64,000 bases of DNA, taken from Hyphomicrobiaceae bacterium. GTDB lineage: Bacteria > Pseudomonadota > Alphaproteobacteria > Rhizobiales > Hyphomicrobiaceae. The stretch spans positions 1 through 64,000 of the forward strand of contig JAURWC010000074.1 of the NCBI GenBank assembly GCA_030655135.1, in the 5' to 3' direction. Of this stretch, positions 60,348 to 63,978 are shown piece after piece (the first letter of the stretch is position 1; every line of letters begins with the position of its first letter). Both the position numbers and the translations under genes were made by a program. A model generated the notes under the pieces. That model saw nothing but the letters and a program-made list of their open reading frames with translations. It did not search any database and was not told the DNA's origin.

Positions 60348-62129
60348 CTAGACCTCGCCACGGTCGACGCGGCGGGAGAACTCGGTCTGGCCGCCAGACG
60401 CCAGAATGCGCGCCTGCTCGATCCAGTTTTCGCGCTCGATGCGGCCCTTGAAGTCCAAGACTTCGCTGATGCGTTCGACGTCGCTCGCCGACCAGTTGGC
60501 CACCTGCTCATAGCTGGTGATGCCAAGTGAATTCAGCTTCTTCTCGATCAGCACGCCGATACCGCGGATGCGCTTCAGGTCGTCGAGAGCGCCGCGCACG
60601 AACTCCGCATCGTCCCCGAGCAGAGCCTCTGCGCGCACGGAGCGCAAGCCGGTCAGGCCGGAGCGGCTGCCCGGTTCGGCGTTATCGTCTTCCGGTTCCG
60701 CTTCCCCGTCCGTAGGAGCCGCCGCAGCGGAGTGTTCAGCACTGTCGGTGTTTTCACGGATGGCGTCAGCGAGCTTGGCAGGCCGTGGCGGTGCATCGGT
60801 TTGCGGTGCGGGCCGCGAGTACGACGCGACCATGGCGGCTGCAGCTGCCGCAGCCGCTGCCGTGGCAATATCGGCAGCACCCGCAGGCGTCGCATGACGT
60901 GGCGCTTCGGCAGCCGGCGGTGGAGCGTCTTGCGCGCCTCCCGCCAGCAGGCGAGCTTGATCGATCCAATACTCGTCCTGGATGCGGCCAAAGAAGCCCA
61001 GGGTCTGGCTCATGCGGCGCACGTCGTCGGCATTCCAACTGGCGATCTCGGCGAATCGTGTCACCCCGGCGTAGTTGAGCCGCGCGGCAAGCACCTGATC
61101 AATGCCATGGATACGTGTCAGATCGTCGGCCTCGCCGGCTCCGCCCGCGCCTGAAGCGCGCTCAGCTGCAATGCCGGCAGCCGCTGCCAGCGCCGTCGCA
61201 ACGTGCGTGGCCTTGGTCTCGATGACGCGCTCGTCCTCGGGTGCGGGTTCCGGTTCGAGTTCGAGCGGCACGCTCGTGGCCGGCGCCGCGCCAGCACCGC
61301 CGAGCGCGACAGACGCATAGGTCTGCCCCTCGGGCGGGACTGAAAAATCATCTGGATCCGCCGGCACCGGCAGCTCGAAGTCTACGGCCGGAGCTTCCGG
61401 CTGAGGCACGTATGCGACGCCCGCCGCTATGGCCTCGTCGATGTAAGTCTGATGCGGCGGCTCGGGCGCGTCCTGAGGACGTTGCGGCGTCGGAATGGCC
61501 ACGCGGGGCACAGGCAGCGGCTCAGGCGCCGGTCCCGGCATCTGCGGTGGCGGCAAATCGGCCTCGACGATTGCAGGCGGCGGCAGCATCGACCCGTCGT
61601 GGCTGGCGACGGCAATGGCGTTGTACGTATCGCCATCCGTCAGCGTGCCCTCTGCAAATTCGATCGAATTTGTCGCTTCTGGATCGTCCTGGCGCGATAC
61701 CAAAGGAATGTCGAGCGGAGCATCCGGCTCGGGTTCGGGCTGCAGCGGCACCTCTTCCGCATACGGCGGCGGCGCTTCCGGTGCAGGCGGGGGAGGAGGT
61801 GGCGGCACTGGCAACGGCTGGACTTCAATGACCGGTCCAGCTTGGCGAACGTTCGCCTGCTGTACGGGCGCTTCGGCCACGTCACCCGTTAGCGCACGCT
61901 CGAAGCGTTGCGCTTCGGCGCGCGTGACCACAACGGGTGCTGCCGTCGTGGCAGCAGCGACCGCAGCTGAGCGCTGCACGACCGGTGGAACATCCACATG
62001 CAGCGTATCATCCGGCAAGTCATCGCCAGCAAAGCGGTGCAAGCTTCGCTTGAAGACGCAGGCCAACGCCGCGCCCAATACGAAGGCCGCAAGCATCAAC
62101 AGAAACGTCTGCAGTACCAACATATACAT
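60348..62129 (-). CDS. Membrane-anchored protein with two helix-hairpin-helix-like modules
   Basis: A 593-aa protein. An N-terminal helix (LQTFLLMLAAFVLGAALACVF) followed by KRSLHR suggests that the rest is cytoplasmic. Residues 45-320 are Pro/Ala/Glu-rich and probably disordered. Two similar domains of about 60 residues follow. One has LTRIHGIDQVLAARLNYAG and LGFFGRIQDEYWIDQARLLA. The other has LKRIRGIGVLIEKKLNSLG and LDFKGRIERENWIEQARILA. They resemble the HhH-like domain fused to NuoE and other proteins in alphaproteobacteria, with possible nucleic-acid or protein binding. GGAGAG precedes the ATG. It is the third gene of the cluster. Confidence 0.75.
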   Translation of the reverse strand: MYMLVLQTFLLMLAAFVLGAALACVFKRSLHRFAGDDLPDDTLHVDVPPVVQRSAAVAAATTAAPVVVTRAEAQRFERALTGDVAEAPVQQANVRQAGPVIEVQPLPVPPPPPPPAPEAPPPYAEEVPLQPEPEPDAPLDIPLVSRQDDPEATNSIEFAEGTLTDGDTYNAIAVASHDGSMLPPPAIVEADLPPPQMPGPAPEPLPVPRVAIPTPQRPQDAPEPPHQTYIDEAIAAGVAYVPQPEAPAVDFELPVPADPDDFSVPPEGQTYASVALGGAGAAPATSVPLELEPEPAPEDERVIETKATHVATALAAAAGIAAERASGAGGAGEADDLTRIHGIDQVLAARLNYAGVTRFAEIASWNADDVRRMSQTLGFFGRIQDEYWIDQARLLAGGAQDAPPPAAEAPRHATPAGAADIATAAAAAAAAAMVASYSRPAPQTDAPPRPAKLADAIRENTDSAEHSAAAAPTDGEAEPEDDNAEPGSRSGLTGLRSVRAEALLGDDAEFVRGALDDLKRIRGIGVLIEKKLNSLGITSYEQVANWSASDVERISEVLDFKGRIERENWIEQARILASGGQTEFSRRVDRGEV

Positions 62130-62173
62130 CGGTCAACTCTCCCGCGCGGAACGGCGCCAAGCCGTGCGCATCG

Positions 62174-62275
62174 TTACTCGTCTTGCGTTTGTCCGCACGA
62201 AATCCAGCCCACCAGCAGGCCGATGGCGAAGGCCACCGCCACGTACCAGATCAGCTTGAAAAACAGATACTCCAT
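62174..62275 (-). CDS. 33-residue single-span membrane protein
   Basis: The short frame reads MEYLFFKLIWYVAVAFAIGL, continues with one hydrophobic helix and ends in a polar CGQTQDE tail. GGAG is positioned 8 nt before the ATG. It lies in the gap between the OmpA-like gene (stop at 62332) and the HhH gene (start at 62129), in the same direction with gaps of 56 and 44 bp. Such a tiny gene is easily missed by automatic annotation. The layout suggests a subunit or regulator of an envelope complex (inference). Confidence 0.65.
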   Translation of the reverse strand: MEYLFFKLIWYVAVAFAIGLLVGWISCGQTQDE

Positions 62276-62331
62276 GGTGAACTCCAAACTTTCCTGGCCC
62301 AAACTTTCACGGGGCCCAAACATTCACAGCG

Positions 62332-63978
62332 CTACGGAACCGGCGTTACGCTGAACTCGATGCGGCGGTTCTGGCGCATGCCTTCGGGTGTGTCGTTCGG
62401 CGCGATCGGCCGAGACTTACCGAAGCCTTCGGTGCTCACGCGTGATGCATCGACCCCCTTGGAGATGAGGTAGTCCCCCACCGCCTTGGCACGGCGTTCC
62501 GACAGACCCTGGTTGCGCGCGATTTCACCCTCGCCGTCGGTATGCCCGGCGACGTTGATGCGCGCCTGCGGGCAAACCTTGACGATGCCGGCCAGCCGGT
62601 CGAGCGTCAGGAAACTGTCGCGGGTGAGGTCGGCCTTGGCGCGATCGAAGTTGATCACGCCTTCCGCCATCGCGCTGCGCATCAGCCCCTGGCAGTGATC
62701 GGCTTCAGCCTTGCGCTTGGTTTCCTCTGTCTCGTTCTTACGGGCCAGCGCGGTTTCTTCGTCGCTCTTGCGCTTGGCTTCCGCGTCGTCCTGGGCCTGC
62801 TTGGCAGCAGCAGCGTCGGCGTCAGCTTTACGCTTGGCCTCAGCCTCTTCTTCCGCTTTGGCCTTTTCGTCGGCAAGACGCTGGGCTTCCGCCTCGGCCT
62901 CGGCCTGCTCCCGCTCATCGGCCTTGCGCTGCTCTTCCTCCTCGGCGACCCGCTTCTTCTCGACCTCCGCAGCGTCGGCGGCCGCCCGCGCGTCCGCCTC
63001 TTCCTTTGCCTTCGCTTCGGCAGACGCCCTGGCCTCTTCAGCGGCTTTTGCCTCCTCAGCAGCCTTGGCCTCCTCCGCAGCCCTGGCCTCTTCGGCGGCC
63101 TTGGCCGCTTCCGCAGCCTTGGCCGCTTCCGCAGCCTTGGCGTCTTCGGCAGCCTTGGCCTTTTCGGCAGCCTTGGCGTCTTCCGCAGCCTTGGCGTCTT
63201 CGGCGGCCTTGGCCTCTTCCGCAGCCCTGGCGTCTTCAGCGGCCTTCGCCTCGGCAGAAACCCTAGCGTCTTCGGCAGCTTTGGCCTCATCCGCAGCCTT
63301 GGCGTCTTCAGCAGCCCTGGCTTCTTCAGCCGCCTTCGCGTCTTCGGCGGCCTTGGCGTCGCCGGCAGCTTTCGCGTCTGCGGCAGCCTGGGCGTCTTCC
63401 TCGGATTTCAGGCGCTGGCTGTCGCCGGCAGGCTTGCCTGCCATGCCCGAAGCCTTCCAGCTGCGCTCATGTTCCTCGGCTGCGCGCCATCGGGCTTCCA
63501 GTTCGGCCCGTTCGGCCTCGGAAAGTTCTGGCTCGGGTGTCTCGGATGCAACGGGCGCCTCGGGCTCCGGTGCGGCCGCCTGCGGAACAGGCTCCGGCAC
63601 CGTCTGCGGTTCCGGGGCTGCTTCTGGCTGGGGTTCCGGTTCCGGCTGGACTTCAGCCGTCTGGGTGTCGGGGGTCGGCACGGCGGCGGCAGCGGGGGCC
63701 GCATCGGTGCGGCCACGCACGATGCGCACACCCTTCACGTTGCGAACCGTTTCAATGGCGCGGTAAGGCTGAGCGTCGTCCGGCGCAACGCCTGTGACGA
63801 ACGCATCCCGGCCTTCGAGGACAACCGCTCCCCAGCCGTAACCCTGTGATTCCAATGCAGCTTCCGCCCGAGATCGCAGGTCCGTCTCGATGCCCTCGCG
63901 CTCCCACGTGCAGGCCAGCCACGTCAACATCGCAATGGGAATGATCCCCCACAGCCAACGCCAAGGATTGCATCTCAT
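62332..63978 (-). CDS. BON/OmpA protein with long Ala/Lys/Glu coiled coil
   Basis: A 548-aa envelope protein. An N-terminal anchor (GIIPIAMLTWLACTW) follows a basic start, so the body should be periplasmic. A BON-like domain follows (about 30-90; GWGAVVLEGRDAFVTGVAPDD), then a Pro/Glu linker, and then about 190 residues of TolA-like helix made of AKAAED-type hexapeptides. The C-terminal OmpA domain (about 430-548) has NVAGHTDGEGEIARNQGLSERRAKAV and RQNRRIEFSV, the peptidoglycan-binding pattern. The gene is complete, starting 22 bp inside the window edge. It is probably first in a three-gene operon. Confidence 0.88.
   Translation of the reverse strand: MRCNPWRWLWGIIPIAMLTWLACTWEREGIETDLRSRAEAALESQGYGWGAVVLEGRDAFVTGVAPDDAQPYRAIETVRNVKGVRIVRGRTDAAPAAAAVPTPDTQTAEVQPEPEPQPEAAPEPQTVPEPVPQAAAPEPEAPVASETPEPELSEAERAELEARWRAAEEHERSWKASGMAGKPAGDSQRLKSEEDAQAAADAKAAGDAKAAEDAKAAEEARAAEDAKAADEAKAAEDARVSAEAKAAEDARAAEEAKAAEDAKAAEDAKAAEKAKAAEDAKAAEAAKAAEAAKAAEEARAAEEAKAAEEAKAAEEARASAEAKAKEEADARAAADAAEVEKKRVAEEEEQRKADEREQAEAEAEAQRLADEKAKAEEEAEAKRKADADAAAAKQAQDDAEAKRKSDEETALARKNETEETKRKAEADHCQGLMRSAMAEGVINFDRAKADLTRDSFLTLDRLAGIVKVCPQARINVAGHTDGEGEIARNQGLSERRAKAVGDYLISKGVDASRVSTEGFGKSRPIAPNDTPEGMRQNRRIEFSVTPVP
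63012..63392 (-). repeat. 18-bp coding repeats (AKAAED hexapeptides)
   Basis: About 20 near-copies of an 18-bp unit encode A-[KR]-A-A-E-[DEAK]. Limits are approximate. The repeats are in frame, with many synonymous differences, so the array is old or under selection at protein level, though slippage could change its length. Confidence 0.8.

Follow-up and report, generated by a model that had tools for sequence, protein, structure and literature searches.

A conserved three-gene membrane system

The 64,000-nt stretch of DNA analyzed here (the window; positions 1–64,000 of contig JAURWC010000074.1, Hyphomicrobiaceae bacterium, assembly GCA_030655135.1) carries three adjacent genes that form a real, conserved membrane system. 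All three lie on the minus strand and encode, in order of transcription, a BON/OmpA protein, a single-span microprotein, and a membrane-anchored protein with twin helix-hairpin-helix (HhH) modules; together they are called the trio. As a tentative explanation, we propose that the trio makes up one inner-membrane assembly, a peptidoglycan-anchored scaffold with a cytoplasmic array for protein docking. The microprotein, 32–33 residues long, is conserved and easily overlooked, and the trio adds a three-gene envelope system to an order of many soil, plant-associated, and methylotrophic bacteria, the Hyphomicrobiales.

To follow the trio across the family, 60 regions were drawn from 59 of 60 same-family genomes (G008 is absent). 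In 52 of them an OmpA gene is followed by an HhH gene on the same strand, with 107–511 bp between, and each of these 52 gaps holds a small transmembrane open reading frame (ORF). Among the other eight, four are truncated at the HhH gene by a contig end (L043, L080, L089, and L095), three (L091, L092, and L094) are nuoE loci, so called from sequence and neighbors, and one (L061) is without OmpA; the full trio is kept in 52 of the 53 testable regions. The initial annotation, which had described three genes running in one direction with gaps of 44–56 bp and had made its case depend on their staying neighbors, is borne out on both points: the gaps in the window are 56 and 44 bp, and the genes stay together across the family. 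In L061 (G044:C280, 585–3485), unrelated genes, one of them integrase-like by eye, occupy the place where OmpA is expected, which reads as an insertion or an assembly break.

The 60 regions contain 10,833 ORFs. Against these, a microprotein profile, which was derived from the gap sequences and so tests the location of the microprotein and not its existence, gave 52 matches in the OmpA–HhH gap and one outside it. The single outside match also directly precedes an HhH gene. The trio outlasts its surroundings, because 24 of the 47 family regions whose downstream sequence extends for 3 kb or more have none of the window's four downstream neighbors (alpha/beta hydrolase, lytic transglycosylase, dapA, and smpB), the other 23, the window included, having at least one; in this tblastn search (E 1e-15) the neighbors are missing from 29 regions, five of which have less than 3 kb downstream. 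Most relatives with names belong to Hyphomicrobium or elsewhere in the Hyphomicrobiaceae, and many are metagenome assemblies. We found no paper on the cluster or the module among open-licence PubMed Central (PMC) papers; such papers may exist elsewhere.

At E ≤0.1 the microprotein profile finds matches in 64 of 121 genomes of the order and in 23 of 190 genomes of a class sample, the latter mostly weak; matches above ~E 1e-3 in both searches may be due to chance. The microprotein query gave no match against plasmid records. Forty order-level loci were selected, 39 from the 64 matching genomes plus L269, and their composition is not a frequency in the order: 33 have the trio, two have OmpA beside a fusion of the other two genes, three are without a detected OmpA, and two are without a detected HhH protein. 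The last five include misses of the scoring rule, as L237 (also listed as L107) has an OmpA N-terminus, L251 has an adjacent OmpA frame, and in L252 the HhH protein lies inside a merged long frame.

The BON/OmpA protein and its predicted linker

The first gene (62332–63978, minus strand) encodes a 548-residue protein. From the N-terminus it consists of a membrane span, a single BON domain, a segment rich in Pro and Glu, a 224-residue charged helix, and an OmpA-family peptidoglycan-binding domain (residues 444–538; 62365–62649, minus strand), which matches Pfam PF00691 at E 2.6e-22. The predicted transmembrane segment, placed by eye at about residues 8–24 (63907–63957, minus strand), is preceded by MRCNPWR. 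Searched at full length, the protein matches OmpA in Pfam and no BON family. Residues 30–87 (63718–63891, minus strand), searched separately, match BON PF04972 at E 6.3e-5 with 23.6 bits, slightly below the 27-bit cut-off, and 20 of 23 N-termini of OmpA proteins match it at E ≤1. In a model of residues 1–100 (predicted local distance difference test score, pLDDT, 82), one helix comprising residues 5–44 runs from the span into the BON fold, for which Foldseek gives CdsD (2.1e-4) and OsmY (3.6e-4) as the nearest solved folds. This arrangement would place the BON domain immediately at the membrane surface. W8 and G11 are invariant across 23 aligned N-termini.

The charged helix (residues 207–430; 62689–63360, minus strand) is the longest run free of Pro and Gly in the protein, ~33 nm if straight at 0.15 nm per residue. 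Its sequence repeats with a period of 6 rather than 7, contains five L, I, V, M, or F in 221 residues, and places opposite charges at i+3/i+4. The hexad repeat and the scarcity of these hydrophobic residues make a charged single α-helix likelier than a coiled coil. Of the earlier description of this segment as a TolA-like coiled coil, the long helix stands and the coiled coil was dropped. At the DNA level the helix is coded largely by ~21 tandem 18-bp units (63026–63399). Elsewhere in the family, an A/E/K/R-rich run of at least 100 residues is found in 13 of 47 OmpA proteins, and 17 have none by the same rule. A second-BON signature, roughly counted with a regular expression, is present in 39 of the 47, the window's protein being among the eight without it; of six relatives scanned with Pfam, five show two or more stretches or families of the BON or BON-like kind and the sixth shows none. 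Judged from these patterns, the linker is variable and the charged helix is one solution.

Tol-Pal (TolA/Pal) and MotB-type anchors likewise hold a peptidoglycan-binding OmpA domain at the membrane via a linker. However, only the OmpA domain matches these systems, and the trio protein has BON behind an inner-membrane span. Pal_lipo, among the best 25 of 40 families, reaches 66.4 of 125.35 bits and stays below the model cut-off, the MotB model PRK08457 reaches 66 of 250 bits, and no TolA family in Pfam matches the OmpA protein at E ≤1.

The microprotein, its fusions, and membrane topology

The second gene (62174–62275, minus strand) encodes the 33-residue, single-span microprotein MEYLFFKLIWYVAVAFAIGLLVGWISCGQTQDE, identified by relatives in all 52 OmpA–HhH gaps and by profile searches. 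Its start is the ATG common to the relatives, the mechanical ORF beginning further upstream, at 62323. An alignment of 39 microproteins yields the consensus MDYLxxKLxWYxxxAFxxGLxVGWxSC, in which M1, G19, and C27 are invariant. A GGAG or GGGAG motif lies a few bases 5' of the start of each of the three genes. The third gene (60348–62129, minus strand) encodes the 593-residue HhH protein, whose N-terminal transmembrane segment (residues 8–26; 62052–62108, minus strand) contains C24, followed by KR.

In five genomes (L126, L128, L211, L213, and L270, the last from Rhizobium lusitanum) the microprotein and the HhH protein are fused into one protein, encoded beside OmpA. All five fusions have the same layout, with a first span, an extra hydrophobic segment, a span resembling the HhH anchor, and HhH modules. 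With one segment inserted, both original spans would keep the same orientation. The fusions argue that the microprotein and the HhH protein act together.

The HhH anchor is predicted to be N-out/C-in: its C-terminal flank is richer in K and R in 52 of 52 family proteins, and by net charge 41 of the 52 fit this orientation and eight oppose it. For the OmpA protein, net charge gives N-in in all 47 proteins scored; five of the 52 were unscored (two cut by contig ends, one with a split frame, one with an N-terminus outside the pattern, and one divergent). Its periplasmic side also follows from function, since the peptidoglycan-binding domain fixes it. K/R counts of the unfused microproteins lean N-out/C-in (33 versus 5, with 14 ties); from the orientation of the HhH anchor and the geometry of the fusions, we infer that the microprotein is N-out/C-in. 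The initial annotation had assigned the HhH modules to the cytoplasm and the OmpA protein to the periplasm. The former agrees with both charge measures, whereas the latter agrees with net charge and not with K/R counts alone.

All three proteins have a conserved cysteine near the predicted cytoplasmic face of the membrane, C3 of OmpA (46/47), C27 of the microprotein (52/52), and C24 of the HhH protein (50/52 in the family). Among the 25 order-level clusters scorable for all three, nine have all the cysteines, four have none, and 12 are mixed; the clusters come from related loci, so co-variation proves nothing.

The HhH module is shared with ribosomal proteins and complex I

Behind its anchor the HhH protein has a Pro/Ala-rich tether and two modules, module 1 at residues 335–398 (60936–61127, minus strand; hairpin GID) and module 2 at residues 516–579 (60393–60584, minus strand; hairpin GIG; model pLDDT 85). 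Pfam HHH_5 (PF14520) matches two stretches at E 1.2e-7. The 52 family proteins contain 154 copies, with three copies in 36 proteins, two in ten, four in two, five in two, seven in one, and one in one. The mean net charge over all copies is −0.83 and that of the last copies ~+0.1; the third hairpin position is D in 45% and G in 36%, and the R and W of a GRIxxxxW motif are invariant in 154/154. A second look at the Foldseek list for the HhH model gave the RadA N-domain (Z 7.2) and NusA AR2 (Z 6.8) as the nearest folds; NusA AR2 has been solved with the protein SuhB (6ib8, from its title).

Three further proteins of this genome, named from sequence and neighbors as NuoE, L19, and S2 (G000:C22, regions L003 and L005, and G000:C3, region L004), each end in the same module, and in other genomes (L272, L275, and L286) it is found on L21, recognized by sequence. 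Matches to curated and solved members place it in one family with NuoE, L21, S2, and protein-O. NCBIfam models of L21 (PRK12278), S2 (PRK12311), NuoE (PRK12373), and the phasin PhaH contain the module; residues 420–591 of the window's HhH protein match PRK12373 at E 1.8e-39, below the cut-off set for the whole-length model, since the two share no more than their C-terminal part. In the examples seen, these proteins have no membrane span and bear one module as a tag, in contrast to the membrane-anchored array of the trio. Matches in the PDB are 8yy9_O, protein-O of the photosynthetic core complex RC-LH1 (E 1.5e-18), and 9wqv_a, a complex I subunit (E 5.8e-17). The module is an orphan found on a photosynthetic core complex as well as on complex I and ribosomal proteins, and the trio gives a tractable handle on it.

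The module lies at the C-terminus both in protein-O, from the RC-LH1 complex of Dinoroseobacter shibae, and in 9wqv_a, the '41 kd' subunit of complex I. As described in the excerpted text of PMC12079452, protein-O has an N-terminal membrane part and a long flexible loop, as does the HhH protein, and a C-terminal domain that is unresolved in the structure. The same text places a disulphide that closes its membrane hairpin on the cytoplasmic side; the module that follows should therefore be cytoplasmic. Protein-O differs from the trio in that its gene lies between nuoE and nuoF and its hairpin has two spans, and the excerpt mentions neither an OmpA protein nor a microprotein (PMC12079452). The membrane part of protein-O was also considered as a counterpart of the fused trio protein; no sequence similarity was seen. 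Separately, in L217 (1667–3052), L276 (1456–2400), and L281 (734–1420), a gene straight after a module-bearing NuoE-like gene encodes two hydrophobic segments and an HhH module, an arrangement as in RC-LH1 protein-O.

A tentative model: a wall-anchored docking platform

In the assembly that we propose, the N-terminal span would hold the OmpA protein in the inner membrane and set its BON domain on the periplasmic surface. From there a linker of variable make-up, consisting of additional BON domains, a charged helix, or a segment rich in Pro, would bring the OmpA domain to the peptidoglycan that it grips. Within the membrane the OmpA span may pack with the microprotein and the HhH-protein anchor, the latter two oriented N-out/C-in. 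The HhH protein would show its 1–7 modules in the cytoplasm on a flexible tether, and the modules, of the same kind as on NuoE, L19, L21, S2, and the reaction-centre protein-O, would most likely bind a protein. The complex, the packing of its spans, its docking role, and its docking partner are all putative, and the topology on which they build is predicted.

Several observations weigh against this model. The fusions join the microprotein with the HhH protein and not with OmpA; the first span of L270 escapes the microprotein profile and was identified by its position, and the third segment of L128 is moderately hydrophobic (1.57), the weakest of the fusions. For the OmpA protein, K/R counts alone point the other way, the C-terminal flank being richer in 28 proteins and the N-terminal flank in 4, with 15 ties, and the net charge of the unfused microprotein is unclear (21 for N-out/C-in, 22 against). 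The fold matches of the HhH module are weak, with no Foldseek hit at E ≤0.001 and all Z <8, and the excerpted text of PMC12079452 calls the physiological role of the C-terminal domain of protein-O obscure. One family region, L061, has the microprotein and the HhH protein with no OmpA nearby. Finally, the trio is rare outside the order; counts of 110/121 genomes of the order, mostly module-only matches, and of 15/181 genomes come from different queries and are not strictly comparable.

A more far-reaching version of the model, which we consider highly improbable, would make the HhH module an address label common to ribosomes (L19, L21, and S2), complex I (NuoE and protein-O-like proteins), and the wall-anchored array. 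If these met via the module or one partner, the trio would fix the translation and respiration machinery to peptidoglycan in Hyphomicrobiales, and the cysteines could clamp the assembly; the disulphide of protein-O lies on the cytoplasmic face, where the trio cysteines are predicted (PMC12079452, in the excerpted text). Counting against such a label, the module occurs in other orders on L21 and NuoE where no trio was detected, so a label of this kind could do without the trio.

Alternative explanations

The initial annotation had left it open whether the twin modules bind nucleic acid or protein. If they bound DNA or RNA, the trio would be a wall tether for the nucleoid or for RNA bound to ribosomes, and the structural neighbors of the HhH fold among DNA repair proteins, the GIG hairpin of the window's second copy, and the presence of the module on L19 and S2 here and on L21 elsewhere all fit this idea. 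However, the copies are near-neutral, G, which is typical of DNA binders at the third hairpin position, occurs in about a third of them, the invariant R and W fall outside the hairpin, and the module also caps NuoE and protein-O. The nucleic-acid half of the earlier claim is weakened by the charge and the hairpin composition, and we regard tethering of this kind as distinctly unlikely; the evidence is somewhat easier to reconcile with a module that binds protein in the cytoplasm than with one that binds DNA. An explanation that dispenses with a complex, in which envelope genes are co-transcribed under common control, would be satisfied by linkage and fusion, which are what the trio displays, and by the promoter-like match upstream of OmpA. 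Yet the order is kept with a 32-residue protein in between, the trio is retained where the surroundings have changed, and two of the three genes occur fused, with an extra segment by which orientation would be maintained, so mere co-transcription also seems rather improbable. The initial annotation had further taken the helix to be long enough to cross the periplasm, which would make it a ruler. An uninterrupted run of 224 residues would be long enough to invite this reading, but as a general device it fails on the family counts (a run of at least 100 residues in the minority, none in 17, and a second-BON signature in most), and a periplasm-spanning ruler was ruled out as a general feature. 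As the tandem 18-bp units also suggest an unstable helix length, we rate the ruler as very unlikely.

Resemblance to the mycobacterial arfABC genes deserves somewhat more weight. In mycobacteria the gene order is arfA-arfB-arfC, as also read off the model names Rv0900 and Rv0901, and the operon is linked to ammonia secretion and adaptation to acid. Were the trio the alphaproteobacterial counterpart of arfABC (ompATb; Rv0899–Rv0901), it would act in permeability or export during stress, and its HhH part would have been added in this lineage. Both systems combine a membrane-anchored BON and OmpA protein with small membrane proteins, and the window's first gene has the architecture of the first arfABC gene (N-terminal span, BON, and C-terminal OmpA), with its BON slightly below the Pfam cut-off; the domain layout of ArfA and a pore-forming and ammonia-secretion role of Rv0899 are given in the excerpted text of PMC6151718. 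At E ≤1, the NCBIfam ArfB model matches 21 of 39 microproteins (best 3.3e-4) and 6 of 27 HhH-protein spans (best 0.0016), ArfC_N matches 6 of 39 microproteins (best 0.0039), and ArfA_OmpATb_N matches 3 of 23 OmpA N-termini (best 0.015), the window's not among them. A control with 39 unrelated transmembrane segments from the same regions gave at most one ArfB match (56 families matched; ArfB is not among the 25 listed, each with one member). However, no Arf match attains a curated cut-off, neither ArfA_OmpATb_N in the 23 N-termini nor ArfB (NF051435; 40 bits) in the 39 microproteins; the window's own microprotein has no ArfB match, and ArfC has none at E ≤1 in the window's HhH protein or in 27 HhH-protein N-termini. 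Generic small-membrane models match the microproteins as well or better (Pfam LapA_dom 36/39, best 3.6e-5; MTLN 31/39), and the HhH region of the window's protein matches no Arf model. At E 0.01 the ArfB model has no hit in this genome; it has hits in two of the 96 class genomes, which do not exceed the cut-off. The trio also differs by the HhH modules on its third protein and by phylum. With the ArfA, ArfB, and ArfC cut-offs unmet, filing the trio as arfABC was rejected. It is arranged like arfABC and is perhaps a distant relative, not provably a member; that it is the functional counterpart we consider unlikely.

Related arrangements and genomic surroundings

Outside the order, a two-gene form was seen in two examples (L131 and L277), in which OmpA is followed by a single-span HhH protein. 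In L127 and L132, also outside the order, the gene after BON/OmpA encodes a small protein that crosses the membrane once, has a charged tail, and lacks an HhH module; the short protein of L127 matches ArfB at E 0.0015, below the cut-off.

A promoter and terminator scan covered L036 4900–9400. The three terminator-like sites found there, all on the plus strand, compare with 4.7 expected, and four promoter-like rows compare with 0.5 expected from shuffles. Two of these rows, overlapping on the minus strand at L036 9119–9147, lie ~140 bp 5' of the OmpA start, just past the window end; the remaining two are plus-strand rows located downstream of the three genes. Also downstream, on the opposite strand, are the genes for the alpha/beta hydrolase and the lytic transglycosylase. 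The 5' neighbor of the trio, on the same strand, encodes a HAMP/PAS/GGDEF/EAL protein (G000:C41, 64254–66761; L036 9255–11762), and a protein of this type is located near the trio in 4 of 52 family regions, the window's own included.

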